Shown here: one piece after another, positions 1 through 17,629 of the stretch | How the letters are laid out: each line of letters begins with the position of its first letter | Position numbering within the stretch: the stretch's first letter is position 1 | Origin: Candidatus Hydrothermota bacterium | GTDB taxonomy: Bacteria > Hydrothermota > Hydrothermia > B15-G9 | Assembly (NCBI GenBank): GCA_003645975.1 | Contig: QNDP01000004.1 | Coordinates: 1-19,099, forward strand | DNA length: 19,099 nucleotides | Direction: 5' to 3' | Notes under the pieces: generated by a model | The model's database searches: none | The model's input: the letters and a program-made list of their open reading frames with translations, nothing else | What the model was told of the DNA's origin: nothing | Made by a program: the position numbers and the translations under genes

Positions 1-1449
1 AATCGGTTTGTCATGCGCCTGTTGTTCATAAATCTTCTGTCCAGTGTTGAGGTCTAAGACCACCAGTTTTCCATCAAATCCGCCGGCAATAAGTTTGTCG
101 TTGCCCCAAAATGCGATCGAGCGGTAGCCCCGTTTTGCTTCCTGAAATTCAAAGACTTTTGTCATTTCGGGAAGCTTATAAACTTCTATTGGGCGCAGCA
201 TTCCGGAAAGTGCAATTAGATGCTCGTCCGGTGAAAATTTGATGCAGAATATCATGTTGTCAGGTGTCGGAATGGCGAAAAGCAATTGACCGGATTGAAA
301 ATCGAATATCATGACGCTGTCTGTGCTTCCGCCTATTGCAAGGTATTTTCTGGACGGGCTGAGCTTAACTATTTCTCCAACAACGCCTTTTCCGAGAAGA
401 CCCCCGTTTGAAAGATCCCAATAGCGGATGTTGTCAGAGAAGCTTCCAGAGATCAAAAGGTTAGATTTTTTGTCAAACAAAAGTGAGGTTATCCATTGGA
501 AATGGATCAGATGTTTTGCGAGTTCCTGTCCATTTTGGACATCCCAAAGAATCACACTTCGGTCAGCGCCGCCACTTGCAAGTCGTTTGCCATCGGGTGA
601 GATTGCCAAGCCGAGCACTCCATCGAAATGGCCTCTCAATGTGAATTTCGGACTGCGTTTTTCCATCCGCCAGATTTTTATGGTCGAGTCCTTGCTTGCG
701 CTGATCAGCACTCCGTCAGGTGTAAAAATCAAGTCCGATATGCTTCCCGCATGTGCCTCGAGCTTTGAAACGACTTTGAAACCAGATGGATCGATAAAGT
801 AAAGGAATCCATTTCCAGTTCCTACAACGATTTGTGAGCCGTCAGGTTTAACAGCAACGCTTTGACCGTCATTGCCTTCCAATTGAACTAATCCGACAAG
901 ATTGCTGTCGTTCCACAGCTTAGCGGTTCCATCTCCACTTACCGAGACAAGTCGTCCATCGGGTAGAAATTCCAAGTCTGTAACGGCTTCTTCGTGGGCG
1001 TTAAAGTTGGCTATTTGCTCCCCTGTTTGTCCATTAAAGATTGCGATAAAGCCATCTTCAAAACCGATGGCGTATTTTGAGGCGTCTGGTGTGAGTGCAA
1101 AACTGCAAATTGGATGTCCTAATTCGACCTCGGAGACTTCCTTCAGATTATCGATGTCCCAAATTTTGTAATAGCCGTCGTGTCCAACACTTATAAGATA
1201 ATTTCGACTTGGCCAGAATTGAATTTTTGCCACGAAGTCGTTATGTCCGGGCAAAGAGGCCAGGAATTTACCCGTTTTGCCATCCCAAAGCATTATGACT
1301 CCATCGCCTCCCGCCGATGCCAAAATGTCTCCACTGGTGTTGAATGCGACCGTTTTCACCCAAAATTGATGGCCGGTGATAACCAGTTCTGCCCCTTCTG
1401 GTAGATGTGGATTCAACGCCATTATGACCAATATTAACCCTTTTATCAC
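1..1449 (-). CDS. Exported WD40-repeat beta-propeller protein (C-terminus beyond window)
   Basis: An open frame of 483 codons runs from a GTG at 1449 to the left edge without a stop, so the C-terminus is missing. The start is set by a Shine-Dalgarno AGGAGGT at 1459 region (minus strand, 1462-1456) six bases before the GTG. Residues 1-20 are hydrophobic with an early Lys and look like a short signal peptide. From about residue 25 on there are at least ten WD40-type blades; typical signatures are GH...V.....F...G..LAS...DG.I.LWD, seen at about 26-56, 69-98, 150-180, 232-261 and 273-303. More blades follow, so the full protein probably holds two propellers. WD40 propellers are binding scaffolds and carry no catalytic motif here. 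It lies downstream of the barrel protein gene on the same strand but has its own candidate sigma-54 promoter. The specific partner is unknown. Confidence 0.85.
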   Translation of the reverse strand, partial: MIKGLILVIMALNPHLPEGAELVITGHQFWVKTVAFNTSGDILASAGGDGVIMLWDGKTGKFLASLPGHNDFVAKIQFWPSRNYLISVGHDGYYKIWDIDNLKEVSEVELGHPICSFALTPDASKYAIGFEDGFIAIFNGQTGEQIANFNAHEEAVTDLEFLPDGRLVSVSGDGTAKLWNDSNLVGLVQLEGNDGQSVAVKPDGSQIVVGTGNGFLYFIDPSGFKVVSKLEAHAGSISDLIFTPDGVLISASKDSTIKIWRMEKRSPKFTLRGHFDGVLGLAISPDGKRLASGGADRSVILWDVQNGQELAKHLIHFQWITSLLFDKKSNLLISGSFSDNIRYWDLSNGGLLGKGVVGEIVKLSPSRKYLAIGGSTDSVMIFDFQSGQLLFAIPTPDNMIFCIKFSPDEHLIALSGMLRPIEVYKLPEMTKVFEFQEAKRGYRSIAFWGNDKLIAGGFDGKLVVLDLNTGQKIYEQQAHDKPI

Positions 1450-1549
1450 TGCTGCACCTCCTTTTATGACAATGACCTACTTAGTTGTGCAAAGTGCTCC
1501 AAAGAATGGGTTGATTGAAAGGACAATTCACAATTGCAACGAAGGGGTT

Positions 1550-1565
1550 AGCAATCTGTGTTCCA
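1550..1565 (-). promoter_or_regulatory. Candidate sigma-54 (-24/-12) promoter for the WD40 gene
   Basis: Read on the minus strand, this is TGGAACACAGATTGCT, which fits the sigma-54 consensus TGGCAC-N5-TTGCW with the required GG-N10-GC spacing (GG at 1564-1563, GC at 1552-1551). Transcription would start near 1539, about 90 bases before the WD40 start codon. It matches the pilin promoter at 17025-17040 in 14 of 16 bases, and the next five bases (AACCC) are also identical. The activator binding site was not identified. Confidence 0.65.
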
Positions 1566-1574
1566 CTCGACTTT

Positions 1575-2951
1575 TTAGAACCAAAATTTGTAAAACAATT
1601 TTATTTTTTGTTCAACACGGCGCTCCTTCGTGTCGGCTACATCTGGATCATTGACCAGTCCGTCGGCAGTGTGTGATGGCTCACCAAATTCGAGATAAAT
1701 TTCGGAATTTTTGAATCCACGATATGCAAATTGTAAGAAGATAGACTGCCATGTCCCACAAATTGCATGCCCTACTGCTGCACGGCCGTAAAACTGCAAG
1801 TTGTCAGTGATGTTATATCGAGCTTCTACCCCCCAAATCACGCGCTGCCCGATCGAATATGGCACATCCACGACGCGGGTATTCACACCTATGTCTTTGA
1901 TTTTTAACTGAATTTTTCCACCTGCCCGTTTGGTTTCACCGCCTATCTCAAAGAAAAGATGTCGCCATGTGTCGTGTTTCTCGTGCATTACATCGTAGGA
2001 CGCCTTAAATGTGAAACCGTTTATAAATTCCCAGTAAGTTTCAAAATAGTTCCATCTGACGAGATGTTCCGAAGCCTCGGGCATGCCCATGTAATAGTTT
2101 GTCCTGTAAGTTTTGGCTTTGTAGATAAGATTGATCGCCTTGTAGGGCACAAGATACACAACCTCAGCATAGTAACCCCTTCGTCCAAACTCTCTGTCAA
2201 AGGAAGGGTTAAACCGATTTGAGAGCTCATCGAAGAAATTGCGGCCGTAGTCGAAAAATGAGCCTGCGATCAGGAAATTTTTGAAACGGATGCTACGGAG
2301 TTCAAGCTCCCATGCAGCTCGGTCTGATGAATCGGCGTTATTTGGATGCAAACTCTTCGCTATCTCGAAATTTATTCTCAGCGGTCCTTTAACTTTAAAA
2401 CTGCCTTCAAGTCCAGAAACTTCGTTAAAACTGACACCACTGCCACGCCAATCCTTCTTCAGGTATATTACGCCCAATCCGAATCGGTCTTTCATAAATT
2501 TCTTATAACCTTTGAACACATAGGCTTCTCCGTCCCATGTTCCGTATTTACTGACAATTCCCGTGATATAAAGTCCATATTTCTCCCAAAAATCGAACCG
2601 CATTCCGGAGGCTTTCGGTCCCCACGAGTCATCTTTAAGTCTGTCTGTGTTAACGAGTTTTAAGAGAGGGCTCGGCACGTAAAACCTGTCCTCACGGGAG
2701 AAGAGGGTCATTTCAAAGAACTGTTTCCGCATAGATAAGTGTCCCTGCCAGAACAGCCATCGCCCGCGCTGATTGGTTGTTTCGTAAAAGAGCGAGATGA
2801 AAGCCTCTGTCCCTTCGGAAGGTTTTCCTACAAATCGAGTCTCAACTTTATGGCGTCCCCATGGATTTTGATGGATAAAGTATCCGAACTCTCCTTCGTA
2901 ATACCCACCGATGTAAGTAGTTGCGATTAGGATGCTGAGGATTAAATTCAT
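1575..2951 (-). CDS. Predicted outer-membrane beta-barrel protein, family not recognised
   Basis: With the ATG at 2951 the product is 458 residues and begins MNLILSILIATTYIGG, a plausible short signal peptide. The rest is a run of alternating polar/aromatic segments rich in Tyr, Phe, Trp and Gly, as in amphipathic beta-strands. It ends in KLFYKFWF, the C-terminal aromatic/Phe ending that outer-membrane barrels use for BAM recognition. The frame stays open upstream to 3098 (49 more codons), but that extension is charged and does not look like an export signal. Neither start has a convincing Shine-Dalgarno, so the start is uncertain. I do not recognise the family and no substrate can be inferred. 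The gene is divergent from the ATPase operon and upstream of the WD40 gene on the same strand. Confidence 0.7.
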   Translation of the reverse strand: MNLILSILIATTYIGGYYEGEFGYFIHQNPWGRHKVETRFVGKPSEGTEAFISLFYETTNQRGRWLFWQGHLSMRKQFFEMTLFSREDRFYVPSPLLKLVNTDRLKDDSWGPKASGMRFDFWEKYGLYITGIVSKYGTWDGEAYVFKGYKKFMKDRFGLGVIYLKKDWRGSGVSFNEVSGLEGSFKVKGPLRINFEIAKSLHPNNADSSDRAAWELELRSIRFKNFLIAGSFFDYGRNFFDELSNRFNPSFDREFGRRGYYAEVVYLVPYKAINLIYKAKTYRTNYYMGMPEASEHLVRWNYFETYWEFINGFTFKASYDVMHEKHDTWRHLFFEIGGETKRAGGKIQLKIKDIGVNTRVVDVPYSIGQRVIWGVEARYNITDNLQFYGRAAVGHAICGTWQSIFLQFAYRGFKNSEIYLEFGEPSHTADGLVNDPDVADTKERRVEQKIKLFYKFWF

Positions 2952-3080
2952 AGCGAAATTAAGGTTATTGCAACAAATAGAAATGGTCAACTTGCGGCGG
3001 TAAACCCATTTTGCTCTCAAGGCATTTATCTTAACTGCGAAATCTATTTGCACATTCAAAACCTTTACATCCATAACTTT

Positions 3081-3109
3081 TTGAGCCTCGTTATGCACAT
3101 TGCTCTAAT
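3081..3109 (+). promoter_or_regulatory. Candidate sigma-70 promoter of the ATPase operon
   Basis: TTGAGC (3081-3086) and TCTAAT (3104-3109) are separated by 17 bases, giving 4/6 and 5/6 matches to the -35 and -10 consensus. The predicted start point near 3116 leaves a leader of about 38 bases that contains the strong ribosome binding site AAGGAGG (3141-3147) of the first gene. This is the only good match in the 202-base divergent gap 2952-3153, which otherwise shows nothing clear. Confidence 0.5.
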
Positions 3110-3153
3110 CGTTTTTAAACTTTAAAATTGCGCTCCACAAAAGGAGGCACCCG

Positions 3154-3459
3154 ATGGAATTGATCCGACAGATCAGAGAAGCTGAGGCTGAGGCTAAGAA
3201 GTTGCGGGAGAAAGCACAGAAAGAAGCCGATAACTTGATAGCCGAAGCAGAACGGAATGCAAAGGAGATATTGCAACAAGCTCAGCAAAAAGCAGCCGAA
3301 ATCCGAAACTTGGCTAAGGAAAAGGCCAAAGAGGAAGCAAAAAAATTGGTTAAGGAGATGGATAAAGAGGCTGAACGAAACTTGCAGGAAATTCGATCCT
3401 CTGCGGAACAGAATTTTGATCGAGCTGTCCGGTTCGTCATCGAAAAGGTGAAAGGTTGA
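3154..3459 (+). CDS. A/V-type ATPase peripheral stalk subunit (G/H family)
   Basis: This 101-residue protein is almost wholly charged and predicted to be one long helix. It has Ala/Glu/Lys-rich repeats (for example EAEAEAKKLREKAQKEAD at about 9-26) that resemble the right-handed coiled coils of AhaH/NtpF/subunit G. In the family this helix pairs with subunit E to form the peripheral stalk that holds the catalytic head against the membrane part. The start ATG follows AAGGAGG by six bases. It is the first gene of the operon and ends three bases before subunit I. Length and position (directly before subunit I) are usual for bacterial A/V-ATPases. Low-complexity coiled coils are hard to assign alone, so context carries much of the call. 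Confidence 0.85.
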   Translation: MELIRQIREAEAEAKKLREKAQKEADNLIAEAERNAKEILQQAQQKAAEIRNLAKEKAKEEAKKLVKEMDKEAERNLQEIRSSAEQNFDRAVRFVIEKVKG

Positions 3460-3462
3460 GAG

Positions 3463-5373
3463 ATGGCGGTAGCAAGAGTCGAGAAAGTTGCAATTTTTGT
3501 GCATAAATCCGAAAAAGATAAATTGCTTCAGGAACTTCAAAAAGCTTCTCTATTCCATGTCTCAGATGTTTGGCAATCACCCCATTTTTCTGAATTTACT
3601 GCCGGTTCTGAACGCCAAGTCAGCTCAGTAGGAAGTGAACTTTTACAAAGGCTCAAATCCGTGATAAACGTTTTAAAAAATTATGCACCCTCACAGAAAT
3701 CCGGTCTTTTTGGACAAAAAGAGAAGGTTAGTCTCGATGAATTTCACAGTGTAGTGAAGGACTTTGATCCAGAACCGATCATCTCTGAGTTTGAGAAGAT
3801 CCAGATCCGTAAAAATTCTATCAATTTGGATAGGAAGAACCTGCAGGAACAACTGAAAAGTCTTGAACCATGGAAGGATGCAAAATTCGATTTCTCTTTG
3901 GTAGGCAAAGGTGAATATGTAACGGTGATCGCTGGAACCATCCCTGTTGGCAAAATGGGGGTTTTAGAGGAGCTTCCAATAGAATTTCAAATTGTAAACA
4001 GCGACAATAGAAAGGCTTATGTGATTTTGGCTTTTATGAACGAAGATGAAAACGAAGTAAAGCGTAAATTGGGTGAGGCTGAATTTGAACAATTTGATTT
4101 TAGAGGAGATATAAATGAGGAAATAAAACGCCTCACCGAAAAGTTGAAAGAATTAGATAGGGAAAGCGAAGAACTTAAAGCCCGTTTATTTTCTCTTGCC
4201 CAACACCTTCGCGAACTAAAGATCTATTATGATTTTTATTCTGATCTCGTTGCTCGACGTGAAGTAGAAATGCTTTCGTTTTCCACTGAAAAAGCTTTTG
4301 TCGTTGAAGGATGGGTCAAATCCGATGATAAAGACAAACTTGAGAAAATACTTTCGGAGTTTGAATCCGTCAGTTACTCCTATATGGAACCCTTTGAAAA
4401 TGAGAAACCGCCTGTAGCTCTCAAAAATTCTCGTTGGAGTGAGCCCTACGAGTTGATAACTGAGATGTATGGTCTGCCGGATCCAAGAGAAGTTGACCCC
4501 ACGCCTCTCCTTGCACCATTTTTTGCCCTCTTTTTCGGAGTTTGTTTGACAGATGCTGCATATGGGCTTGTTCTGACACTCCTTAGTCTTTGGGCAATCC
4601 GTAAGTTTTCTGCAGGCGATAAGTTGTTCAAAATAATAGCTATGGGTGGAGTGTGCGCTATTATAGCCGGGATGCTGACAGGTGGATGGTTCGGCGATCT
4701 GTTCGTTCGTCTTAACATCCCTGTTTTTGCAGCTATTCGAAGCAAGTTTATGTGGTTTGACCCTATGGAAGAGCCGATGAAGTTCTTTTACATTTCGTTG
4801 GTTCTCGGATATGTCCAAATTCTTTGGGGTTTGCTCATAGGTTTTTACAACAAATGGAAATGGGGCGAGAGACTTAACGGTATAGCTAATGAACTTGCAT
4901 GGGTCGTTTTCCTTATCGGCTTGGTAGTTGCATTTGTGTTTCACATAAGTGCTGGAAAACTAATGATTTATGCCTCTTTGGCGGTCATTCTGTTTTTGAG
5001 TGGGACAAGTAAAAATCCGGTTATGCGGATTCTTCAGGGACTTTACAACATCTATGGAGGCATAGGTTTTCTTGGTGATCTGCTGTCCTATGTGCGCTTG
5101 ATGGCACGCGGGATGGTAACTGCTGGGATAGCCATGGCTGTCAACATAACTGCTCAACTTGTGATAGGGATTCCGATACTTGGTTGGATATTGGCGTTCT
5201 TGATTTTTATTGGCGGACACATTTTCAGCATAGCGGTGAATGTCTTAGGAGCGTTTGTCCACACCATGCGTCTCCAGTATGTCGAATTTTTTACAAAGTT
5301 TTATCAAAACGGCGGTCGTCCTTTCCGTCCATTTGGACCAAGACATGAATTTGTAGAGGTAGTGGAAGGATGA
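3463..5373 (+). CDS. ntpI: A/V-type ATPase subunit I (a subunit, ion half-channels)
   Basis: The product has 636 residues, normal for the family. The N-terminal half (to about 340) is soluble with coiled-coil stretches (about 215-250) and forms the collar that holds the peripheral stalks. From about P346 the sequence PTPLLAPFFALFFGVCLTDAAYG opens the membrane half with several hydrophobic segments. The helix containing LLSYVRLMARGM carries the conserved essential Arg (R545), which faces the c-ring carboxylate during ion transfer. The gene starts three bases after the stalk gene, with AAAGGT in the end of that gene as a weak ribosome site. Its stop overlaps the start of the EVE-nuclease gene in ATGA. 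No key residue seems missing. Confidence 0.96.
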   Translation: MAVARVEKVAIFVHKSEKDKLLQELQKASLFHVSDVWQSPHFSEFTAGSERQVSSVGSELLQRLKSVINVLKNYAPSQKSGLFGQKEKVSLDEFHSVVKDFDPEPIISEFEKIQIRKNSINLDRKNLQEQLKSLEPWKDAKFDFSLVGKGEYVTVIAGTIPVGKMGVLEELPIEFQIVNSDNRKAYVILAFMNEDENEVKRKLGEAEFEQFDFRGDINEEIKRLTEKLKELDRESEELKARLFSLAQHLRELKIYYDFYSDLVARREVEMLSFSTEKAFVVEGWVKSDDKDKLEKILSEFESVSYSYMEPFENEKPPVALKNSRWSEPYELITEMYGLPDPREVDPTPLLAPFFALFFGVCLTDAAYGLVLTLLSLWAIRKFSAGDKLFKIIAMGGVCAIIAGMLTGGWFGDLFVRLNIPVFAAIRSKFMWFDPMEEPMKFFYISLVLGYVQILWGLLIGFYNKWKWGERLNGIANELAWVVFLIGLVVAFVFHISAGKLMIYASLAVILFLSGTSKNPVMRILQGLYNIYGGIGFLGDLLSYVRLMARGMVTAGIAMAVNITAQLVIGIPILGWILAFLIFIGGHIFSIAVNVLGAFVHTMRLQYVEFFTKFYQNGGRPFRPFGPRHEFVEVVEG

Positions 5374-6341
5374 GTTATCACATTCTTTTGACAAGTCAGG
5401 AGAACTTTGAAGTCCCTAAAATGCAAGGAGTTTATGGAGCACCAAAGGGCAAAAACAGTGCTACAAATGCAGAAATTGTTGCAAGTTTGTCTGTTATAAA
5501 ACCCGGTGATTTCATTTTTTTCTATGTTAAAAACGTTGGTATTTATGGCGTTTGGAAAGTGATTTCACATCCATTTTACGACGAAACTCCTATTTATTCT
5601 GACCGAGTTTACCCGTATCGGATCCTTTTTGAGCCAGTCATTAGGGAGTTCGAAGAGCCGATATTGCTGCATGAAATTTTGGATTTGAGAGATAAAGGTA
5701 AAATTTGGACATTCGATATGGGCATGTTTACTAAAAAGAACCATTTTCCGATAACAAGCCAAGAAGGAATTGAAATTTTGAGACTTTTACTGCGCAATAA
5801 TCCTGTATTTAAACCTGTGCGTCGGTTAAAAAATCCATATCGTCCAATAAATCGTCGTCCTCTTTGGAAACGTTTTGAATTTGATTCAAAGGGAAGATTT
5901 CGTTATGAAGGGCATCTAAATGCTTGGTTAGCCAAGTCTTTTGTAGATGGAGAACTTCGTGATGTTTTTGGAGATTACTTTGATGTAATAAACTATGTGC
6001 CCACCTCGTTTAATAAAATCATGGATTTCTTTCTGACTCATGTAACAAGAGTCGATTCCATCGATATATTGCATAAATTCACCTGTCTGGAATTAAAAAC
6101 TGGAACTGTAAAGGAAAAAGATTTGGAACAGCTTATCCGTTACGAAAATTGGATAGCTCGTAAGTTAGCGGATGGGGACTTTGATATGGTGCAAAGTATT
6201 TTGATCGGCTTTGATTTTGATGATTCTGTGATCGAATTCGTTGCAAAACGAAACAAATTGGAACATAGAAAGGTAAGACTTTTAAAGTATGAGGTAATGG
6301 ATATCTCTTTGGGGCGGATAGCGTTGCATGAAATAAACTGA
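5370..6341 (+). CDS. EVE-domain + PD-(D/E)XK nuclease fusion
   Basis: This is a 323-residue soluble protein with two recognisable parts. Residues 1 to about 125 resemble an EVE/PUA-like domain: KPGDFIFFYVKNVGIYGVWKV at 44-64, then a segment with PFYDETPI and YPYRILFEP. EVE domains are known as readers of modified bases, often fused to nucleases in modification-dependent restriction. Residues about 178-320 look like a NucS/DUF91-type PD-(D/E)XK nuclease. E180 opens the EGHLNAWL helix, then come D229/D232 in RVDSID, E241-L-K243 in LELKTG and QLIRYENW (254-261). All core acidic and Lys residues are present, so it should be active. Its ATG lies in the ATGA overlap with ntpI, and it ends 21 bases before ntpK, so it is co-transcribed with the ATPase. 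No role in the ATPase is known; a DNA defence or DNA processing role is inferred from the domains. Confidence 0.75.
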   Translation: MSYHILLTSQENFEVPKMQGVYGAPKGKNSATNAEIVASLSVIKPGDFIFFYVKNVGIYGVWKVISHPFYDETPIYSDRVYPYRILFEPVIREFEEPILLHEILDLRDKGKIWTFDMGMFTKKNHFPITSQEGIEILRLLLRNNPVFKPVRRLKNPYRPINRRPLWKRFEFDSKGRFRYEGHLNAWLAKSFVDGELRDVFGDYFDVINYVPTSFNKIMDFFLTHVTRVDSIDILHKFTCLELKTGTVKEKDLEQLIRYENWIARKLADGDFDMVQSILIGFDFDDSVIEFVAKRNKLEHRKVRLLKYEVMDISLGRIALHEIN

Positions 6342-7452
<1,111 letters not shown>

Positions 7453-7456
<4 letters not shown>

Positions 7457-8463
7457 TGTTGAGGATACCGAGACAGGAAGATACTCGTTTCGCTTATGCA
7501 ATTGGGCGTGTGAGAGCGCTTGAAAACAGGCTGCTTGACCGTCAGAGGGTGGAAAGACTTTTGGATGCCGAGACCCCTTCAGAACTCCTTAATTTGCTTC
7601 AAGATACCGACTATGGACGCTATATCCCGGAACTCTCGTCTCCGTCTGAATTCGAAAAGATGCTCAGAGCCGAACGGAAAAGAGTTGTGGAACTCTTTGA
7701 AAAGCTTTCACCTGTGAAGGAATTAACCTATGAAATCCGTCGTCCATACGATTTTCACAATATCAAAGTGCTTTTAAAAGCCAAGATTACCGAATCCAAT
7801 TTCGACTATGCCCTTTACGATATAGGTAATATTCCCATACCTGAGTTGAAGCGGATTTTTGATTCCGAATCCTATCAAAAACTGCCGATCGATCTCCAGA
7901 ATACGGTCGAAACAGCCATCGAGAGATTTTACATATCGAATAAAGACCCTAAAATTCTTTCGGAGACAGTGGATGAAGCGGCTGCTCGATACTTAACCCT
8001 ATGTGACTCCAGCGTATTCCTCAAATTTTATAGAAAAGCCGAAATTGATTTGATCAATTTTAAAACGCTTGTGCGAGTGAAGGCTTTCTCACATGCAGAT
8101 ATATCAAGAGTTTACTTTGTCGAAGGAGGAACAATAAGTGTCGGAGAATATCGGCGGGCACTTAGTGATTCGTTGGAGAGTATTCCACATAGATTCTTCA
8201 CAACTCCATATTATAAAATCCTTGAAGATGGCATAAATTTTTATAAAAGAACAAAATCTTTCTCGAGGCTTGAAAAGCTCTTCGATGATTTCCTTGTGGA
8301 AATCCTTAGATTGACGCGTTATATCGATTTAGGGCCAGAACCTCTTATCGCATATTTATTTGCTAAATTCAACGAAATTAAAGTGCTGCGCATGATTTTT
8401 GTAGGCAAACTCAACCGAATATCTAAGGAGAAAATAAAGGAGCGGTTACCTAATGTATTCTAA
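7453..8463 (+). CDS. ntpC: A/V-type ATPase subunit C (central stalk socket on the c-ring)
   Basis: The 336-residue, mainly helical protein begins with the family-typical FAYAIGRVRALENRLLDRQRVERLLDA-like N-terminus (about residues 13-38) and has the usual length. Subunit C (d in eukaryotes) is a funnel that couples the D/F shaft to the rotating c-ring. It starts in the ATGA overlap with ntpE; a second ATG follows at once at 7456 and either could be used. No ribosome binding site is visible, which points to reinitiation after ntpE. The 3' end overlaps the next gene by 11 bases and contains that gene's ribosome site. Confidence 0.93.
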
Positions 8464-8782
8464 CGGTGAAAACAAAATAGGCTGTGTCGGAGAGTATGAT
8501 GTGGTATTCCCATTTAAATCCATGAACTTCGATATTGTTCCGGTGACTGATGAGGATATGGCCTTCAATGCTGTTAAAGAATTTGTGGACAAAAATTATG
8601 CGGTTATTCTCGTCCAAGAGAAGTTCCTGACCGCTATACATGACTTGATTATGGAGACTTATGCTCGACCGATCCCAGCAATTGTGGCTATTCCAGGACC
8701 CGAAGGTTCTTTGGGGATAGCCCTTGATAAAGTCAGAGATGTGATTCGCCGAGCAGTAGGCAAGGATCTGCTTGGAGACTAA
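8453..8782 (+). CDS. ntpG: A/V-type ATPase subunit F (central stalk)
   Basis: The 109-residue protein has the Rossmann-like pattern of subunit F: KIGCVGEYDVVFPFKSM at about 8-24, a central YAVILVQEKF strand and IPAIVAIPGPEGS before the C-terminal helix. In the complex it binds subunit D to form the rotating shaft. The start ATG follows AAAGGAG (8436-8442) by ten bases and lies inside the end of ntpC. It is the last gene of the operon: the terminator follows within 26 bases. This is odd because A, B and D usually follow F. Confidence 0.92.
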   Translation: MYSNGENKIGCVGEYDVVFPFKSMNFDIVPVTDEDMAFNAVKEFVDKNYAVILVQEKFLTAIHDLIMETYARPIPAIVAIPGPEGSLGIALDKVRDVIRRAVGKDLLGD

Positions 8783-8807
8783 AAATCAATTCCTCAGAGG
8801 GAAAAGA

Positions 8808-8848
8808 AACGGCAGGGAGTAAAAACCCTGCCGTTATGTTTTTTCTTT
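8808..8848 (+). terminator. Intrinsic terminator of the ATPase operon
   Basis: A perfect 10-base-pair stem, AACGGCAGGG (8808-8817) with CCCTGCCGTT (8826-8835), encloses an eight-base loop and is followed by a T-rich run (8839-8848). It lies between convergent genes. On the minus strand the same stem is followed by TTCTTTT, so it may also end the pilin operon transcript. Confidence 0.9.
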
Positions 8849-8863
8849 GTTGAACGATGACCT

Positions 8864-9247
8864 TTAGCGAATCTGACTTTTTATAGGAATAGTCTTAGTT
8901 TCCCTATCGATATTACTTTTTGTGATTTTTATTTCTTTGACGATTACCGATTTTCCAGCCCTTTTTAAGGTGATCTGTGCTTCTGCTGGAAGCATACTTT
9001 TGACTCCAAAAGGAGATATATTTCTTCCGTAAGGGTCATAAATCACGCATTGAGGGTCAAGTTTAAATTCGATCCCTCCTCCTATAATCACTGAATCCTT
9101 AGTAAATTTGGTGATGATAGTTTCAAGCTTGATGATATTTGTGAATCTCTTTTCAATCTGTCGTAGTTGGTCGAGCTCCTTTCCTCCAGTATCTATCGCC
9201 TTTATTCCATACACATTAAACAGCATTAAAACCAATATGAGCTTCAT
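8864..9247 (-). CDS. Small exported protein at the end of the minor pilin operon
   Basis: This 127-residue protein has a short signal peptide (MKLILVLMLFNVYGIKA). The mature part has a charged segment (about 22-45), then a beta-rich part with IIGGGIEFKLDPQCVIYDPYG and LKRAGKSVIVKEIKI. The pattern (strand, small Gly-rich turn, stated value, strand) recalls OB-like exported domains such as DUF5666, but only weakly. It starts 11 bases after an AGGAGGT site (9265-9259) and 20 bases after pilY1, so it is probably the last gene of the operon. In Pseudomonas the corresponding place holds the minor pilin PilE; this protein has no prepilin signal and is not a pilin. A periplasmic pilus accessory role is inferred from context only. 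Confidence 0.7.
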   Translation of the reverse strand: MKLILVLMLFNVYGIKAIDTGGKELDQLRQIEKRFTNIIKLETIITKFTKDSVIIGGGIEFKLDPQCVIYDPYGRNISPFGVKSMLPAEAQITLKRAGKSVIVKEIKITKSNIDRETKTIPIKSQIR

Positions 9248-9267
9248 GACAATTCTGCACCTCCTTT

Positions 9268-12200
9268 TTATGGATTTCCTTCAAATAATCTCCAAAGAAT
9301 TACGCCGCTTCTCAATTTTATCGGGAGCTTCAACTCGACTTCTTCAATGGCTCCAGAGCTGGATTGTATGAACGCTTTCTCCTGTTCACTAAGGTGTGCA
9401 GTGGGTTGAGAAGGAGTTCCCTGTTCAAGGGAGACTACTTTCTCATTATTCACAATGTTAGTGCCGGTTAAGTAATACAGGATGTAGAGATTACCGCTTC
9501 CACCAAAAGCGCATATATCGGCCACAGGTTTAAAGGTTGAGAACAGGACAGCTCCACCTATGACCACCGGTTTCGTAACATTTCTCTCCCCAATTTTTGC
9601 CAGTCTCATTTTCCATCCATGATGAGGGTATATTTGATTCAACACGAATTCCGAAAGAGTATAGGAATTGGTTCCTTGTTTAATAATAATTGCTCCTTCC
9701 TCTTCTACCATGGAGCAATTCGTCACATCGAAAAGCCCATCGGGGTCCACACTTCCGTCTCCTTGCTCGTAGTGATCGTCCATTACTCCATAGAGATACC
9801 GATAACGGTTTATCTCTTCATCAGATTTAACAAAGTATCTTCCTGTTCCAAAGAACACCCACAGATTGCCGTATTTATCAAAAGTTACACTTGGAGCAGC
9901 GGAGATGGCACCTTGGGTATATCCACTCGTGAGTTCTGAAATTTGCCAATCGTCAGGAGATTCGCTATCAAATGTGTTCAATCTGAAGACCTTACCATAC
10001 CACTCAGACCCAACAAGAATATTTGTGGAAATGTAAAGGACATCTACAGAGTAATCCATCCCTACATCAAGTGATGCGATGCCGCTTACAAAGGAGTTGG
10101 CAGCGCTCAAAGTAAATGTTTTTAACAATTGGCCGGTAAGAGGATCTATGACAAAAATTCGGCCATTTTGGTCAGAGCAAGCGTCCAAGTCTGTGGGACC
10201 CGAACCTATCACGATAAACCACTTATTTTTCACCTTGATAACGGAAGGATAGAAGATCGTGTAGCCGAGATTAGGATGGGTGAATTCCCATAAATACTCG
10301 GGGTTTTCCGGATCAGTTATATCAATTGCAAAATAGGCAGATCTAAAGGTAATGTTTGTTCCGTTTACATTTACAGTGATAGGCTGTCCTCCAAATCTCA
10401 TGCCGACTATAGCCAATGTGCCCCATCCATAGGGATGTTTTCCCGTAGAACTCTCATATTCCTCAGACCATATCCTTACATCAGCGACCTTTACCTTCAG
10501 ATCCACATAATATCTGTGGCAATTTTCGTAGCTTGAATCTTTCAAAACGGCTAAGTGCGGAAGTAAATTGAACGGAATGAAAGCCCACAATTCCTTCCCT
10601 AAAGGTTCCCCGTCCCCATCCACATAGAATGTCTCTTTTCTATCAACAGTAGCGGGATTGTCACCTAACACAATTTTACCTGTATTAAAAGCGTGGACCA
10701 TTCCGTCATTTGCTCCCACTATAACAATTCGTCTTCTGTCCTTCCATTTGTCACGAAAAACACCGTAAGTTTCATCGTTGTAAATCACGTCATATCTCGC
10801 ACCGGGTTCTCCAACAAATGTAGGGGTTGAGTAAATAATATCACCGAGTTTCCATACGTGGCCGTCATAAGTTCTATTTCTATAATTTGGACTGTCGTAA
10901 TCCACGCCCCTCAAGTAATTTATCACAGTTTCAGCCTCTGCTACACTCGAAACGTCCAAATACGGACGCAAGAGAGAAGCTTTCGATGCGACGAAATCCA
11001 CAACTTCATTACTTTCGGCTTTTCCATTGAGGTTCAAATCGACAAAGACTTTTATATTTCTTTGGCTGGGAGACATGCTTTCCCAAAGGAATTTGCCTCC
11101 ATCCCACACAGCGTGCACATCTTCATACGCAACAGTGTCAACGAGATCGGAAGGTGAAAAATATCCATCTCCATCTTCGTCGCGATATCTTTCTACAATC
11201 GAATGGCCTATAGAGGCATCGAATTTGATTTTAATGATAAAATCTTTATTCAAAGTCAAACCATGGTCTTCATCAGTGTCTTCTCTCAAATTACCGTAGT
11301 TATCGATGAAGAAACCCCTCACTGAGCCAATCCAGGAAATATTTCGGTTGGGTAAAAGTTTTTTGGGTGTGAAATAAGCCTGATATGCAAGTCCTTGAGC
11401 AGAGGAAGCTGTCGTTGCTATAGCCACTGCTGATGCGCTTGCTGTTCGATTAAGAATGTCAACGAATATGTTCCGTAAAGCTTCTTTTAACTGTTCAGGG
11501 TTATCAGCGTAGTAAGCATGACCATCTACCGCTGTTCCTCCAACTACTGCAAGTGTATCCAACTTGCTTTTTGCCTCCCCAAGTGCTACGCCCACCACAT
11601 AAGTTTTTATGTCAAATATATCGCCATTATACGAAGTGTGTCTTAATTCCTCGATTCGTGCAGCGACTCCTTTTATTAAATCGTCAGCATTTCCTCGATG
11701 ACCGTTTTCATCTACGCTTGGCAATCCATCGGTTACAAGGATAACGAAATTATTTTGACACCAAGCTTGGATAGGCGAAGACCTGTCAACTCCCGGAACC
11801 GCTTCACTGGACGGAAGATGCCCTTCGAAATATTTGCGAGCCGAATAAATGGTCCCTGCCAGAGGTGTAAGTCCAGCATTTCTTATCGGTGTGGCGTAAA
11901 TATCACCCCCTGATCCCCCAAAGTAGGAATAACCCGTATTTATGCCTGTATCTCCATCTTTATATCCTAATTTGTTCTTTAACTTTTTCTTATGTTCTGC
12001 AGTAACATCTGCGACTTCCACTTGAAGCAAACCCGGCCCTGGAGAGACATTTGAAAACCAAGCAAGTCCTACATGCCACCAAGACATTCTTCTACCAAAA
12101 TCCCAATAACCCAATGCAATGTCTGTATCCGTCGGCCCAAACCAGTAAGTTCCTATTAGACTCGAATATCCGCTGTAACCGTCAGATGTTCCCGTTTTAT

Positions 12201-12915
12201 ATCTGTAAATGCGATACCAATCAGTTGCACAAAAACTTCCTGACGTCCATTGGCATCCTTCATGCGGGTTATAACTTGGGGCATAAGCGAAAGCTGTCCC
12301 TTCGTCATGAGAAGAGTAAAAAGGATATGCATGTTTGAAATAGATATAGTGAGAAGGGTCTGTAGGATTGGTTACCTTCTGGGTTTTAGGATAAACTAAA
12401 TTGCAATATTTGCATCTGGTTGAGGAATTTAACGGATAAGTCGTTATAATCTCATCAAAATAATCTATGTCAAAAGATGGATTTTTTTGTTTACATTCTG
12501 TTTCACATATTGCTCGAGCTGAAGGATTCCCTGTGCAGCAATATTCCACACATTCGGGAGGCGGATCCGGACAATAAGATTTGGGTTGATAGGACACAAA
12601 ATAAGGCGAATTGTGAATATGGCGCAAAGACATGCTTGATTGTTTATAAGTCATCAAACCTATTCTCATTTTGTCGCCAAATTCATCTATCAAGTTTTCG
12701 ATGGTCGTTCTCGCTACAACTGATTTGCTACTGTCATCATTACTCCCAACAGCGTTTCCATAGAAATCCTCATCCATGCTGTTGGAGTTGTCTAATATAA
12801 CCAACACATTAGGAGTGGCTCTTCTGATCATAAAAGGGGGATAGACACATACTTGTGCCTTAAGTGAAGAAATTATTCCTATAAAAATAAACATCACTAC
12901 GAACATTTTTTTCAT
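9268..12915 (-). CDS. pilY1: PilY1-type pilus tip adhesin/assembly protein
   Basis: The product of 1215 residues begins with a clear signal peptide (MKKMFVVMFIFIGIISSLKA). An in-frame start at 12957 would overlap pilX; the ATG at 12915 follows GGGGGTGAG at a good distance. A von Willebrand A domain follows, with the metal site DNSNS at 42-46 and a later TDGLPS. It is interrupted by a Cys-rich loop with six Cys at about 115-141 and more near 165. Two EF-hand-like calcium loops sit at 579-590 (DEDGDGYFSPSD) and 626-637 (DLNLNGKAESNE). The C-terminal PilY1 beta-propeller carries the signature VGANDGMVHAF. PilY1 proteins form the pilus tip complex with minor pilins and act in adhesion, mechanosensing and calcium-dependent control of retraction. 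The gene lies directly after four minor pilin genes, as in Pseudomonas aeruginosa. Confidence 0.93.
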   Translation of the reverse strand: MKKMFVVMFIFIGIISSLKAQVCVYPPFMIRRATPNVLVILDNSNSMDEDFYGNAVGSNDDSSKSVVARTTIENLIDEFGDKMRIGLMTYKQSSMSLRHIHNSPYFVSYQPKSYCPDPPPECVEYCCTGNPSARAICETECKQKNPSFDIDYFDEIITTYPLNSSTRCKYCNLVYPKTQKVTNPTDPSHYIYFKHAYPFYSSHDEGTAFAYAPSYNPHEGCQWTSGSFCATDWYRIYRYKTGTSDGYSGYSSLIGTYWFGPTDTDIALGYWDFGRRMSWWHVGLAWFSNVSPGPGLLQVEVADVTAEHKKKLKNKLGYKDGDTGINTGYSYFGGSGGDIYATPIRNAGLTPLAGTIYSARKYFEGHLPSSEAVPGVDRSSPIQAWCQNNFVILVTDGLPSVDENGHRGNADDLIKGVAARIEELRHTSYNGDIFDIKTYVVGVALGEAKSKLDTLAVVGGTAVDGHAYYADNPEQLKEALRNIFVDILNRTASASAVAIATTASSAQGLAYQAYFTPKKLLPNRNISWIGSVRGFFIDNYGNLREDTDEDHGLTLNKDFIIKIKFDASIGHSIVERYRDEDGDGYFSPSDLVDTVAYEDVHAVWDGGKFLWESMSPSQRNIKVFVDLNLNGKAESNEVVDFVASKASLLRPYLDVSSVAEAETVINYLRGVDYDSPNYRNRTYDGHVWKLGDIIYSTPTFVGEPGARYDVIYNDETYGVFRDKWKDRRRIVIVGANDGMVHAFNTGKIVLGDNPATVDRKETFYVDGDGEPLGKELWAFIPFNLLPHLAVLKDSSYENCHRYYVDLKVKVADVRIWSEEYESSTGKHPYGWGTLAIVGMRFGGQPITVNVNGTNITFRSAYFAIDITDPENPEYLWEFTHPNLGYTIFYPSVIKVKNKWFIVIGSGPTDLDACSDQNGRIFVIDPLTGQLLKTFTLSAANSFVSGIASLDVGMDYSVDVLYISTNILVGSEWYGKVFRLNTFDSESPDDWQISELTSGYTQGAISAAPSVTFDKYGNLWVFFGTGRYFVKSDEEINRYRYLYGVMDDHYEQGDGSVDPDGLFDVTNCSMVEEEGAIIIKQGTNSYTLSEFVLNQIYPHHGWKMRLAKIGERNVTKPVVIGGAVLFSTFKPVADICAFGGSGNLYILYYLTGTNIVNNEKVVSLEQGTPSQPTAHLSEQEKAFIQSSSGAIEEVELKLPIKLRSGVILWRLFEGNP

Positions 12916-12934
12916 TATTCTCACCCCCGATTTA

Positions 12935-13384
12935 TTATTTTCCAGGTAATCCAACAATTTTCCTGTAAAGAACTTGCAGATTCTTCTTTTCTTTACGAGG
13001 ACCCTTTGCCGAAGAATATATTATATAAATCTTTGACATCCCACCTCCAGAAGTTTCCGTTCCTATGGGTTCATATCCTGTAGAGAACTCCACGCCACTC
13101 CCAACAACAAACTCGTTGTAAAAAGGCACAATCTCGACATCCACTTTGTATTTACCAAATTTGTATTGTTGTTCTAAATTTATTCCGGCCTCGGTGGTAA
13201 GCTGTTGTATAGAATTTAAACTAGCTTCTACCCCTGCCTCGGCAGCCTCGCGTGTATTTTGAACCCTCCGTCCACTCCCGAGAATCTGCATATTTCGAAT
13301 AGCTAAAAAGAGAACCACGCTACCAACTGCAAGAAGGAATAATAAGACAATCATTGCTGTCACTAATGCCACACCCCTTTTCAT
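12935..13384 (-). CDS. pilX: PilX-type minor pilin
   Basis: With the start at 13384 the protein has 149 residues. The N-terminus MKRGVALVTAMIVLLFLLAV is typical of PilX/GspK-like minor pilins, with a short leader ending in Gly. Mature position 5 is Thr instead of the usual Glu, as is common in PilX and GspK, which cap the initiating minor pilin complex. The RNMQILGSGRRVQNTREAAEAGVEA stretch after the helix also fits PilX. The start was chosen because AAGAGGTG (13398-13391) lies six bases before it; an in-frame ATG at 13411 overlaps the pilW stop as ATGA and could be used through coupling. Confidence 0.83.
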   Translation of the reverse strand: MKRGVALVTAMIVLLFLLAVGSVVLFLAIRNMQILGSGRRVQNTREAAEAGVEASLNSIQQLTTEAGINLEQQYKFGKYKVDVEIVPFYNEFVVGSGVEFSTGYEPIGTETSGGGMSKIYIIYSSAKGPRKEKKNLQVLYRKIVGLPGK

Positions 13385-13407
13385 GTTCATCACCTCTTTA
13401 TCCGAGT

Positions 13408-14367
13408 TCATCTAAACAAATTCCTTGGTTTGATAGTAATGGCTAAAGGGATCCATCGGTAATGTCTATCTTCGCCTCCTATATCAATCGAGTGGATAAT
13501 TGAGCCATCGGGTGTAGAAACACTGACGTTTTCAGAAGGATATTCGTAACTCCTATCTTTTCGCGGAGAGTGAATTATCAGCGAGATTTGCACAAGTTTT
13601 AAATTATCGCGTAGGTGATCTGCACTCCATCCTTGCGGGATGGACGAGACCCAAGCGATATCTCCTTTACCACTTGTATCCACTGCAAGATCAACCTTAA
13701 AAAGCCTCACATTACGAAGCAACTCCTCACCAGAGCGCAAAAGCACTTCATCATTAGTGAGCTTGTAATGAACTTCAGTATAAGTTGAGCCAGGATCGTT
13801 CACTACAAACACAAGATATCCCGGATTCACGTATTGCACAGCCGATTCCAATGTCAAAATAAGCGCATTTTTATTTTCACCCGTTACGGTTACATAAGTT
13901 GTCTCTTTAACAGAACTTACATTGAGCGGACCTGCAACAAGCTCCTTATCCCCCATCAAAATAATGATATAATCAGTAGAATCAATGTTCTCTATCGGAT
14001 TATCCCAACGATAAACAAGAAGTGTGTTAGTGTTATGGGCCTTCTGCAAAATGTAAGTCCATTTACCTCTTTCTGTAATGAAAGCGGTGGCTCGAAGAAC
14101 AAGTGAATCGGATCCATTTATCCCAACAGAATCCCATTGACTCAGAGGATACACATTTGTCCTCAAACCAAATCCGGTTAACCAGATGTCCCATGTGATA
14201 ATTTCCGATGCAAGTTGAATTTCGCTTTGCATGAAGGAAAAACTTCGTTCCCTGACCGCCTCCCTAACCTTGAGGTTTAGAAACAGCAAGATCAGTGAGA
14301 TAACAAATCCCAAAATAGCCATGGAGATAACCAATTCGACGAGAGTTATGCCTTTTCTGCCTTTCAT
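13408..14367 (-). CDS. pilW: PilW-type minor pilin
   Basis: This is a 319-residue prepilin with the leader MKGRKG, cleavage before Ile7 and the conserved Glu at mature position 5 (ITLVELVISMAILGF). The long C-terminal globular part is rich in beta-strands and of the length usual for PilW, the largest minor pilin. The start overlaps the pilV stop in ATGA, which suggests translational coupling. In the family PilW joins FimT/FimU, PilV and PilX to form the priming complex that carries PilY1 at the pilus tip. Confidence 0.87.
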   Translation of the reverse strand: MKGRKGITLVELVISMAILGFVISLILLFLNLKVREAVRERSFSFMQSEIQLASEIITWDIWLTGFGLRTNVYPLSQWDSVGINGSDSLVLRATAFITERGKWTYILQKAHNTNTLLVYRWDNPIENIDSTDYIIILMGDKELVAGPLNVSSVKETTYVTVTGENKNALILTLESAVQYVNPGYLVFVVNDPGSTYTEVHYKLTNDEVLLRSGEELLRNVRLFKVDLAVDTSGKGDIAWVSSIPQGWSADHLRDNLKLVQISLIIHSPRKDRSYEYPSENVSVSTPDGSIIHSIDIGGEDRHYRWIPLAITIKPRNLFR

Positions 14368-14786
14368 GGCACATTCCCCTTTATCACAGTTAGAGTGTAT
14401 TTGTATTTATGTGCCCAAAGCACAAAGATTTTTATGGTTTTTATGCCTACCACAGCAGAATCGTAAAGCATATTGTCAGCTACATTCCACATAACAGTAT
14501 ATTTATAGTCTTCGATTTGAACCACTCGTTTGTGATCAGGATGATCAGTGTCATCTAAATCATTCACATCTCCATCATCTTGAATAGTAGTGTCTGAGTA
14601 ATTGAGACTTCTAAACATCTCGGCAAATTTAAACGCTATTATCCTTGCATCGGCTTGCCTTTTTGCCCTTCTGTTTAACTGTGCTGCTCCTACACCAAGA
14701 TTAGCCGCAAAAATTATAGCAATGAGAAGGATGGACAAGGCCACCAATATTTCTACAAGAGTTAATCCCCTTTTAACGCAATTCAT
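14364..14786 (-). CDS. pilV: PilV-type minor pilin
   Basis: With the ATG at 14786 the product has 140 residues, a leader MNCVKRG, cleavage before Leu8 and Glu at mature position 5 (LTLVEILVALSILLIAI). The segment after the helix (LNRRAKRQADARIIAFKFAEMFR) fits PilV/PilI-type minor pilins. The frame stays open to 14822, but the purine-rich GGGGGA just before 14786 and the normal leader length favour the shorter form. It overlaps fimT by 14 bases and pilW by four. Confidence 0.83.
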   Translation of the reverse strand: MNCVKRGLTLVEILVALSILLIAIIFAANLGVGAAQLNRRAKRQADARIIAFKFAEMFRSLNYSDTTIQDDGDVNDLDDTDHPDHKRVVQIEDYKYTVMWNVADNMLYDSAVVGIKTIKIFVLWAHKYKYTLTVIKGNVP

Positions 14787-15360
14787 ACCATTCCCCCTGT
14801 TTATACTCATACGTTCTGACATTTCCCCATTTGTTAATCCTTAGCCCAAAGAGCTTGTGTCCGTTGGTCAGATAGATGTAATAAACATCAGCCCAAAACA
14901 AAGTTCCATTTGATTGGAATAGGAGATAGTTGTCAGCGGATGAGGGAGCAAAACTTTTTAAGCTTACAGCAAAGAATCCATCTCCCGGCAATGTGGTGTA
15001 GTCTATACCCATGCCTGCCATGTTCTCATAACCCCAAGGATGCCCGAAGCGCACATTCGACGGAAGCTTTATGCTTCTAAGCTGCGTAAAAAAAGCGGGT
15101 AATGAGTCTAAGGTTATGATGATGTATTGATTAAAGTTGGTGGAATCCGGCGTGAGTCCCCTAATTTCGCCTTTTGCAAGTGCTTCTTGCCTTTCCAACA
15201 GAATATCGCTTTTTAGCTGAAAAACTGCTCCTTTTATACGTTCAGTCCTCAGCATTCTAAGAAAAGAGAAATAGGAAAGAGTAACCATGACAGCCAAAAC
15301 AGCCATAACAGCCAAAACCTCCAATAAAGTTAAGCCTTTATTTGACTTTTTAGAGTTCAT
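14773..15360 (-). CDS. fimT: FimT/GspH-type minor pilin, first gene of the pilin operon
   Basis: The 195-residue prepilin has the leader MNSKKSNKG, cleavage before Leu10 and Glu at mature position 5 (LTLLEVLAVMAVLAVM). The following sequence ends in a strand with LLFQSNGTLFW, like the FimT/GspH domain, where GxSNGTv/i is a common feature. It is preceded by GGAGA (15371-15367) at normal distance. FimT/FimU proteins help start pilus assembly, and some FimT proteins bind DNA during uptake. No binding region can be assigned by eye here. Confidence 0.85.
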   Translation of the reverse strand: MNSKKSNKGLTLLEVLAVMAVLAVMVTLSYFSFLRMLRTERIKGAVFQLKSDILLERQEALAKGEIRGLTPDSTNFNQYIIITLDSLPAFFTQLRSIKLPSNVRFGHPWGYENMAGMGIDYTTLPGDGFFAVSLKSFAPSSADNYLLFQSNGTLFWADVYYIYLTNGHKLFGLRINKWGNVRTYEYKQGEWYELR

Positions 15361-15371
15361 GATTAGTCTCC

Positions 15372-15399
15372 ATGATAAAGTGCCCTATTTTTTTGTCAA
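15372..15399 (-). promoter_or_regulatory. Possible sigma-70 promoter of the minor pilin operon
   Basis: On the minus strand a perfect -35 TTGACA (15399-15394) and a -10-like TATCAT (15377-15372) are 16 bases apart. The predicted start near 15365 would leave only about five bases before the fimT ATG and would cut into the ribosome site, so real use is doubtful unless the mRNA is nearly leaderless. No sigma-54 match was seen in this gap. Confidence 0.35.
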
Positions 15400-15460
15400 G
15401 CGCTAATTTGATAAAGATAATATTTTGTTACTCAACATGTTATCTCTAAATTGAGGCGTT

Positions 15461-15476
15461 TTTCAAATTTTTGAAA
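15461..15476. repeat. Palindrome between rimO and the pilin operon
   Basis: TTTCAAA (15461-15467) and TTTGAAA (15470-15476) form a perfect 7-base inverted repeat with a two-base spacer. It lies about 60 bases upstream of the -35-like box of fimT and could be an operator. The AT-rich composition means it could also be chance. Nothing else clear is seen in the gap 15361-15517. Confidence 0.4.
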
Positions 15477-15517
15477 CACACAAGATCTATGCCGCCAAAT
15501 AGGTGTGGACAAATGGG

Positions 15518-16801: not shown

Positions 16802-17000
16802 CGCAGTTCTCCTGAAAGGCAAAATTTTATTGGATTTTCATAGCGTTAACAGTATTTGCAATTTGCCAAACTTTGTTTGGAAATCGAATAAAAGTGTGTG
16901 CAATCAGAAATTGGATTTTCGATCCATTTTTGAACTGAGTCTCTATGAAATTTGAGTTGTGGTGCAAGAGGGAAATCGTTGACTTTTCGGAATCTTTGCT

Positions 17001-17027
17001 CCAAAAATAGACCCGTTTCTATTTTGG
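17001..17027 (+). repeat. Imperfect inverted repeat overlapping the pilin -24 element
   Basis: CCAAAAATAGA (17001-17011) and TCTATTTTGG (17018-17027) pair over ten bases with one bulged A and a six-base spacer. The right arm contains the GG of the -24 element, so a protein bound here could block sigma-54 polymerase. An RNA role is unlikely because the repeat lies upstream of the predicted start point. Confidence 0.5.
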
Positions 17028-17040
17028 AACAGTGATTGCT
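17025..17040 (+). promoter_or_regulatory. Sigma-54 (-24/-12) promoter of the major pilin gene
   Basis: TGGAACAGTGATTGCT fits TGGCAC-N5-TTGCW with one mismatch in the -24 half and exact GG-N10-GC spacing (17026-17027 and 17038-17039). The expected start point near 17051 gives a leader of about 32 bases containing the ribosome site AAGGAGGA (17066-17073). Pilin genes of Pseudomonas, Myxococcus and Geobacter are known sigma-54/PilR targets. The remaining divergent gap 16802-17082 shows no other firm signal; the rimO promoter was not identified. Confidence 0.75.
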
Positions 17041-17082
17041 AACCCAATGGCATCAACAATAATGCAAGGAGGATTGGGAACC

Positions 17083-17616
17083 ATGAGAGTTGACCACGGA
17101 CTATGTAATAGTCGAGATGGGTTTACTATAACAGAGTTGATGCTGGTAATAGTGATTATTGCCATTTTGGCGGTTATAGGCCTCGCTCAGTTGAAAAGAT
17201 TTAGGTATAGATCTAAGGAAGTCGAGGCCTCCCTTAACATGGATGCTATTCGTTCTCACGAGTTTTCATTTGTGGCCGAAGAGGGACACTTTTTGACGGC
17301 AAGATGGTGTCCATCCGATGTGCCAGGGCCGATAGCCGTAGATTGGGAAAGTGGAACTAATTTTGATAAACTCGGATTTTCTCCTCAAGGTCGTGTCTCT
17401 TACCGTTACAGCGTTGGTGGATACGGTGATGCAGATCCTCCTGAACCAGAATTCATCGAAAACCCTAAAGACAGCATTCAGGAGACTCGTGATGGAAAAT
17501 ACGATATTGCCATACAGGCGGAGGGCGATATTGACGGGGACGGTGAAACTAAAAAGTTTGTCTTGACTGAGGAACCACCTGGAAAGATCAAAGACCTCAC
17601 ACCAAACGAGCATTGA
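17083..17616 (+). CDS. pilA: Type IV major-type pilin (PilA/PilE-like prepilin)
   Basis: The 177-residue prepilin has a 13-residue leader ending in RDG, cleavage before Phe14 and Glu at mature position 5 (FTITELMLVIVIIAILAVIGL). N-methyl-Phe plus Glu5 is the classic type IVa start. The C-terminal domain includes an aspartate-rich turn DIDGDGE (149-155), a pattern frequent in pilins and similar to a calcium loop. There are few Cys: Cys8 is in the leader and one lies near residue 72, so the usual C-terminal disulfide is absent. The ATG was chosen because AAGGAGGA lies nine bases before it; an in-frame ATG at 17032 would precede the predicted transcription start. The gene is single, with its own sigma-54 promoter and a terminator further down, as expected for a strongly and separately regulated pilin. 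Confidence 0.88.
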   Translation: MRVDHGLCNSRDGFTITELMLVIVIIAILAVIGLAQLKRFRYRSKEVEASLNMDAIRSHEFSFVAEEGHFLTARWCPSDVPGPIAVDWESGTNFDKLGFSPQGRVSYRYSVGGYGDADPPEPEFIENPKDSIQETRDGKYDIAIQAEGDIDGDGETKKFVLTEEPPGKIKDLTPNEH

Positions 17617-17629
17617 AGTCGAGATAAAA

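Follow-up and report, generated by a model that had tools for sequence, protein, structure and literature searches.

The EVE-nuclease gene lies between ntpI and ntpK

In a 19,099-nucleotide stretch of DNA from a Candidatus Hydrothermota bacterium (contig QNDP01000004.1, positions 1 to 19,099; here called the window), an A/V-ATPase operon carries a gene for a 323-residue protein that combines an EVE domain with a predicted PD-(D/E)XK nuclease domain. Its reading frame, Pfam matches, database relatives and the corresponding junctions of other genomes mark this gene (5370..6341, + strand) as a solo insertion between ntpI and ntpK. The upstream host gene, ntpI (3463..5373, +; V_ATPase_I in Pfam), retains an intact C-terminus at the junction, and its stop codon (5371-5373) overlaps the nuclease start codon in an ATGA (5370..5373, +). 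The nuclease gene ends in a TGA at 6339-6341, and the likely ATG of the downstream host gene, ntpK (6363..6884, +), stands at 6363; Pfam recognised ATP-synt_C in the frame that opens with a GTG at 6354. The 21 bases between them (6342..6362, +) form an ntpK leader containing AAAAGGAGGT. The sequence confirms the coupling to ntpI through ATGA and the 21-base gap to ntpK that an initial annotation of this DNA had described.

By Pfam, the flanking genes encode A/V-ATPase subunits: G-like (3154-3459), I, c/K, E, C and F. The block (3154-8782) thus reads G-I-K-E-C-F, and F is not followed by A, B or D genes. Such a short block appears ordinary for the family, because the same-family genomes G001-G003 have the same one, with no A/B-like frame in the stretches taken; long Walker-type frames after F in two same-order genomes were read as A and B by pattern and position.

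The nearest same-strand upstream promoter-like site (4940-4967, 9 of 12 matches) falls within ntpI, about 400 bases 5' of the nuclease gene. We rejected a promoter of its own: positions 2900-9000 hold five promoter-like sites, fewer than the mean of 11.2 in shuffled sequence. A terminator-like site inside the nuclease gene (5922-5937) is one of five found, compared with 5.3 in shuffles. Scans for tRNA genes and Rfam families gave no match.

An N-terminal EVE domain

The N-terminal half of the protein (approximately residues 1-137; 5370..5780, +) is an EVE domain according to Pfam, PDB and NCBIfam searches. PF01878 matches residues 40-137 (E=2.2e-7, 31.4 bits, cut-off 23), bearing out the EVE domain originally proposed, and was found at E<=1 in all 32 members of the family alignment, which comprises the window protein and 31 of 120 listed relatives. 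The solved EVE-type protein PH1033 (PDB 1wmm) matches residues 1-115 (E=1.1e-6), and NCBIfam NF002008 matches residues 1-105 (E=1.7e-11, under its own cut-off). This PUA-like domain would be expected to flip out and bind a modified base. Candidates for a base-binding pocket like that of VcaM4I, judged by alignment alone, are the conserved aromatic positions Y22 (Y in 57, W in 3 and C in 1 of 61 rows) and Y52 and W113, each present in 61/61.

A candidate nuclease in the C-terminal half

The PD-(D/E)XK-like nuclease domain (residues 150-323; 5817..6338, +) was recognised from residue invariance, profile alignment to NucS by hhalign and the NCBIfam NucS model. E180, D219, E241, K243, Q254 and Y258 are invariant in 59/59 aligned rows, which include a nearly identical pair of relatives at about 30% identity; partial or broken copies (L069, L032, L034, L018 and L035) were left out of these counts. 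The initial annotation had picked out D232, E241, K243 and a QLxRYxxW motif. The letters are there (QLIRYENW) and E241 and K243 are invariant; position 232 is variable (D in 38, E in 15, N in 3, P in 2 and Q in 1 of the 59 rows), and D232 was rejected as the catalytic acid in favour of the invariant D219, the likely active-site acid judging by conservation.

Aligned with 17 NucS proteins (from 22 loci, L087-L108), the nuclease half gave P=0.0016 and a score of 28.7. Every control scored lower: at most 19.7 in 40 column shuffles, 17.0 with the alignment reversed and 14.3 with an alignment of unrelated methyltransferases. In this register the NucS D, E and K, which we take to be the NucS active-site residues, fall on D219, E241 and K243, with Q254 and Y258 also in register. 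NCBIfam NucS is by far the commonest NCBIfam match among isolated C-terminal halves (12/28 at E<=10, best E=1.4e-4); with the whole window protein it gives E=0.069 and 12.2 bits, and with the C-terminal half 13.9 bits, far short of its cut-off of 216. The protein also differs from NucS/EndoMS in its first half, where the NucS N-terminal domain is absent and an EVE domain stands instead (hhalign of this half against NucS, P=0.32). Of the NucS/DUF91-like character first assigned to the protein, then, a distant similarity of the nuclease half stands and a full NucS match does not.

Weaker matches of the 28 isolated halves include the PD-(D/E)XK family YhcG_C in Pfam (2/28, best E=0.021) and NCBIfam AbiGII (2/28, best E=0.0073). 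Among solved structures, the nuclease half matched a glycoprotein and designed armadillo-type repeats at E<=10 (whole-sequence E of 3.4e-5 at best for the repeats); we judged them uninformative, the armadillo-type matches because no single repeat was significant in the three alignments shown.

Invariance and the NucS register together reveal the D...E-X-K motif with its partner residues. The C-terminal half is thus very probably a divergent PD-(D/E)XK-type nuclease, distantly related to NucS, and the predicted combination of EVE with a PD-(D/E)XK-type motif is upheld.

A sporadic family under constraint

Database searches returned 513 relatives, so the gene is more than a chance open reading frame; the 119 others among the 120 listed share 54-60% identity over 95-100% of its length. 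A scan of genome contigs found nothing with the single sequence and 28 loci with the alignment, all in named genomes: 20 in Chloroflexota, two in Zixibacteria, two Armatimonadota-type, one in NC10, one in Ignavibacteriae and two archaeal records. All 28 carriers are metagenome-assembled, and binning errors are therefore possible. There is one match per genome in 26/28 carriers, and in each of the remaining two a single gene is split into pieces within one contig.

The family is sporadic and appears to be horizontally spread. In the class to which one Chloroflexota carrier belongs, 10/393 genomes have the gene; in the phylum of the source genome the figure is 2/147, the source itself counted. 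In a tree of 38 rows, a Methanoperedens copy pairs with a Chloroflexota copy (98/89), and the copy from G083, of the same phylum as the source, belongs to a supported group of four rows, outside which stands the window row. The latter is poorly placed, on a long terminal branch (1.18, median 0.37). A phage or plasmid origin was rejected: there was no phage or viral-contig match, and the sole plasmid match was weak (Halobaculum, 44% of the query, 32.9%).

The window protein does not look decayed, since it keeps 71 of 74 otherwise near-invariant columns in a leave-one-out count that also omits L067 and L068. Broken copies do occur among the relatives, with a stop in L018 and a frame change in L035.

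Insertion into the ATPase operon

In a search of the class, ntpI was matched in all 40 genomes, the source genome included. Among 29 ntpI loci taken from other genomes, each with a short flank, none contains the nuclease gene; there ntpI is followed directly by a clear ntpK in 14, by a weak ntpK in 4 and by no recognisable ntpK in 11. In same-family genomes the ntpI-ntpK spacer measures 64-65 bases (counted by eye). Two of three such spacers (L038, L039) share with the window the 14-base ACTGAAAAGGAGGT, which starts just before the ntpK leader, and the third has GAAAAGGAGGT in common with that leader. We conclude that the gene took the place of the spacer because of the 14 gene-free ntpI-ntpK junctions and the leader shared with same-family genomes. 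A chimeric assembly is unlikely, as the reading frames are complete at both junctions. The nuclease gene has the lowest GC content (36.4%) and GC3 (32.4%) among 12 genes measured, in a window of 42.4% GC; its codon adaptation is ordinary.

No second genome was found with the nuclease at an ntpI-ntpK junction. When six window ATPase proteins (A, B and D aside) were compared by blastp (E<=1e-3) with frames of at least 60 residues in flanks of up to 8 kb, often shorter, ATPase subunits of the window type were found near 0/28 relatives, a count that very divergent subunits could escape. A conserved position in A/V-ATPase operons is thus not seen, and on these two counts (0/28 relatives and 0/29 other ntpI loci) we rejected a functional tie to the ATPase; the meaningful association, or link to energy state, that the initial annotation had entertained is not supported. 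That annotation had also named the observation that would speak against it, namely related genomes with the same operon lacking the gene and showing a recent insertion scar. Such genomes do lack the gene; no scar was recognised, as a search for a scar or target-site duplication returned just 5-base matches at the junctions, which we take as chance. We are nearly certain that this was a horizontal insertion and that the linkage to the ATPase is incidental; the ATPase itself is probably irrelevant to the enzyme's action. As the gene replaced the spacer, the nuclease most likely lacks a promoter of its own and relies on the ATPase mRNA for its translation.

Restriction genes near the relatives

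Restriction-modification genes or fragments lie within about 0.9 kb of 8/28 relatives. A full-length NgoMIV-family enzyme stands directly 3' of the EVE-nuclease in L030, and shortened ones in the same place in L028 and L027; L021 has a BsaWI-type enzyme nearby, L009 an N6/N4 methyltransferase, and L008 an HNH protein that resembles type II enzymes. One of the family tables behind these identifications shows 25 of 111 families. In L033 there is a partial methyltransferase just under the Pfam cut-off, and in L011 a methyltransferase fragment of 63 residues, 76% identical to an NgoMIV-locus methyltransferase, 871-683 bases 5' of the EVE gene. NgoMIV and BsaWI are CCGG-family type II enzymes; neither kind is present beside the window gene.

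PADLOC was run on 95 near neighbours (95 of 99 references) and on 60 distant genes as a control (60 of 115). Matches were counted per model. Among the near neighbours 24 models matched: one restriction-enzyme model hit three proteins, methyltransferase models one or two each, and two HNH models the L008 protein. A fragment upstream in L013 was considered as a restriction enzyme and not counted, having no PADLOC, Pfam or credible PDB match.

A modification-dependent restriction enzyme as the favoured explanation

Based on these observations, we consider the best explanation to be a modification-dependent restriction enzyme of the EVE-PD-(D/E)XK kind, acquired horizontally and expressed from the ATPase operon, a reading that we hold with moderate confidence. 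A single gene would have been acquired and would have replaced the short spacer that separated ntpI from ntpK. The EVE domain may scan DNA and, on meeting a modified base (a modified cytosine being the likeliest), flip it out and hold it in a pocket; cleavage nearby would then fall to the C-terminal nuclease, with residues E180, D219, E241, K243 and Q254. The outcome would be restriction of modified phage or other incoming DNA in a type IV-like manner, with no methyltransferase needed. A modification-dependent role in defence is more likely than not. Of the functions suggested by the initial annotation, a defence gene using a constitutive housekeeping promoter is the one we judge the best reading, with defence itself still a presumption.

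We infer this mechanism from the EVE literature. Bell, Wolf and Koonin (2020, PMC7641849) place EVE-PD(D/E)XK proteins among the putative type IV restriction enzymes and expect them to act by flipping modified cytosines, and that class has the same predicted two-domain make-up as the window protein; the main text makes no mention of Chloroflexi, NucS or DUF91. In VcaM4I, an EVE-HNH enzyme, the EVE domain flips 5-methylcytosine and 5-hydroxymethylcytosine (PMC7897488). VcaM4I resembles the window protein in having an N-terminal EVE sensor, a C-terminal nuclease and a similar size (its domains reach residue 309), but its nuclease is HNH, unlike the PD-(D/E)XK-type one considered here. As predicted for a type IV enzyme, the window gene appears to fuse a sensor to a nuclease with no cognate methyltransferase alongside, the scanned operon genes being ATPase subunits. 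A literature search with subscription journals mostly outside its scope returned nothing joining EVE with NgoMIV or BsaWI, or EVE with Dehalococcoidia; for restriction genes in ATP synthase operons it listed one paper, on an Azotobacter genome, and nothing on the present arrangement.

Several results weigh against this explanation. For the nuclease fold, the hhalign probability against NucS is just 16%, and the nuclease half exceeds no family cut-off in the Pfam and NCBIfam tables shown. Its commonest weak Pfam match is the unrelated EF_assoc_1, seen in 12/32 whole proteins (best E=0.0043) and 10/28 halves (best E=0.0034); NucS_C is matched by fewer halves (4/28, best E=0.015). For defence, the window protein matches PADLOC weakly (E=0.0088), no restriction gene was recognised close to 20/28 relatives, and the 60 distant genes matched 15 models with one protein each, one a methyltransferase and the rest of other kinds (LmuB, QatA and PDC-S06 among them). 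General defence enrichment near the family is accordingly not shown by this informal comparison, given those 20 relatives and the PADLOC matches in distant controls. The family was also not found in 50,697 phage records, a viral-contig scan or PHROGs. For the substrate, carriers are not depleted in C5-methyltransferases (8/30, against 100/393 genomes of the class), and we rejected host avoidance of 5-methylcytosine on this count. N4-methylcytosine, hypermodified bases or site context may be what the enzyme recognises.

Alternative explanations

The enzyme could instead be type II-like: EVE would read a recognition site, and a methyltransferase from another part of the genome would give protection. 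Distant relatives (about 30% identity) do have N6/N4 methyltransferase genes or fragments next to them (L068 by Pfam, L069 by tblastn, L067 by eye and clustering). L009 has such a gene nearby and L033 a partial one just under the Pfam cut-off, and the window genome has 10 PF01555 matches. An adjacent methyltransferase, which a type II system would have, is nevertheless missing from the window operon; outside those loci and L011, none was seen next to most of the 28 relatives, and no type of methyltransferase proved to co-vary with the EVE-nuclease. We regard this alternative as rather unlikely.

Repair is an unlikely role too. A NucS- or Vsr-like endonuclease might cut next to a base that EVE recognises as mismatched, deaminated or damaged, in keeping with the alignment of the nuclease half with NucS, the lack of a NucS_C match in the window genome (about 80% complete) and the single match per genome in 26/28 carriers. 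Sporadic presence, horizontal transfer and restriction neighbours nevertheless suit defence better, and the NucS N-terminal domain is missing. Vsr accompanies C5-methyltransferases, and these occur in just 8/30 carriers.

The long terminal branch and the broken relatives would fit a decaying foreign gene without function, but the intact frame, the near-invariant columns kept and all six candidate catalytic positions make this very unlikely. That the nuclease works with the A/V-ATPase or senses energy state, as its ATGA coupling and 21-base gap to ntpK might suggest, is largely refuted by the relatives and the other ntpI loci, and we give it next to no credence.

The modification-dependent restriction enzyme remains our preferred explanation. 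The EVE-PD(D/E)XK kind is already known; the interesting parts are the neat operon insertion and a case in which the gene occupies a methyltransferase slot, described below. The former shows clean gene-boundary insertion as a route for a probable defence enzyme into a housekeeping operon and illustrates that tight operon coupling is weak evidence for shared function. Likely catalytic residues can now be named for an EVE-nuclease subfamily with 513 database relatives.

EVE-nuclease genes at NgoMIV-type loci

In the class to which the L030 genome belongs, genes of the NgoMIV family are common (58/396 genomes). In the best 12 of these 58 genomes, the frame directly 5' of NgoMIV is methyltransferase-like in 12/12 (300-494 residues, by motif pattern, without Pfam). 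In L030 (7992-10966) the EVE-nuclease gene sits in this methyltransferase slot ahead of NgoMIV, and tblastn with nine NgoMIV-type methyltransferases found none in the stretch. The gene after NgoMIV is of the same kind as in 5/12 inspected loci (by eye). Four PF01555 matches and PF00145 point to further methyltransferases in the L030 genome, and these may protect it.

A broader, speculative idea, to which we assign a small chance, is that the family is a single-gene operon invader that lands at gene boundaries before a downstream gene, uses the host promoter and may have displaced the methyltransferase of NgoMIV-type pairs in some lineages. If so, a self-marking restriction-modification pair would have turned into a system attacking that very mark. 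The pairing with NgoMIV-type loci poses a concrete biochemical question.

Small neighbours and other features

Two kinds of small protein recur beside the relatives, and the window gene has neither. An acidic protein of 71-81 residues (EDDYYEWLKDNFKSFF-like) is encoded 3' of the EVE-nuclease in 8/28 loci (L008, L016, L017, L018, L020, L024, L032, L035), within 100 bases in seven and at about 500 bases in L032; the L017 copy has 1216 database relatives, and the L018 copy has no Pfam match. A Zn-ribbon-like protein of 75-82 residues lies just 3' in 5/28 (L009, L010, L012, L013, L015), the scanned copy again without a Pfam match. A PolX-like gene (by eye) lies 3' in L009, L015, L019 and L022, and SecA lies 5' in L015 and L022, a possible shared site.

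In the window, a terminator-like hairpin of 10 pairs, usable in both directions, follows the ATPase block at 8808-8835. Beyond it, on the minus strand (9268-15360), runs a set of genes that by eye is type IV pilus-like, with a 1229-residue PilY1-like frame and several prepilin-like starts.

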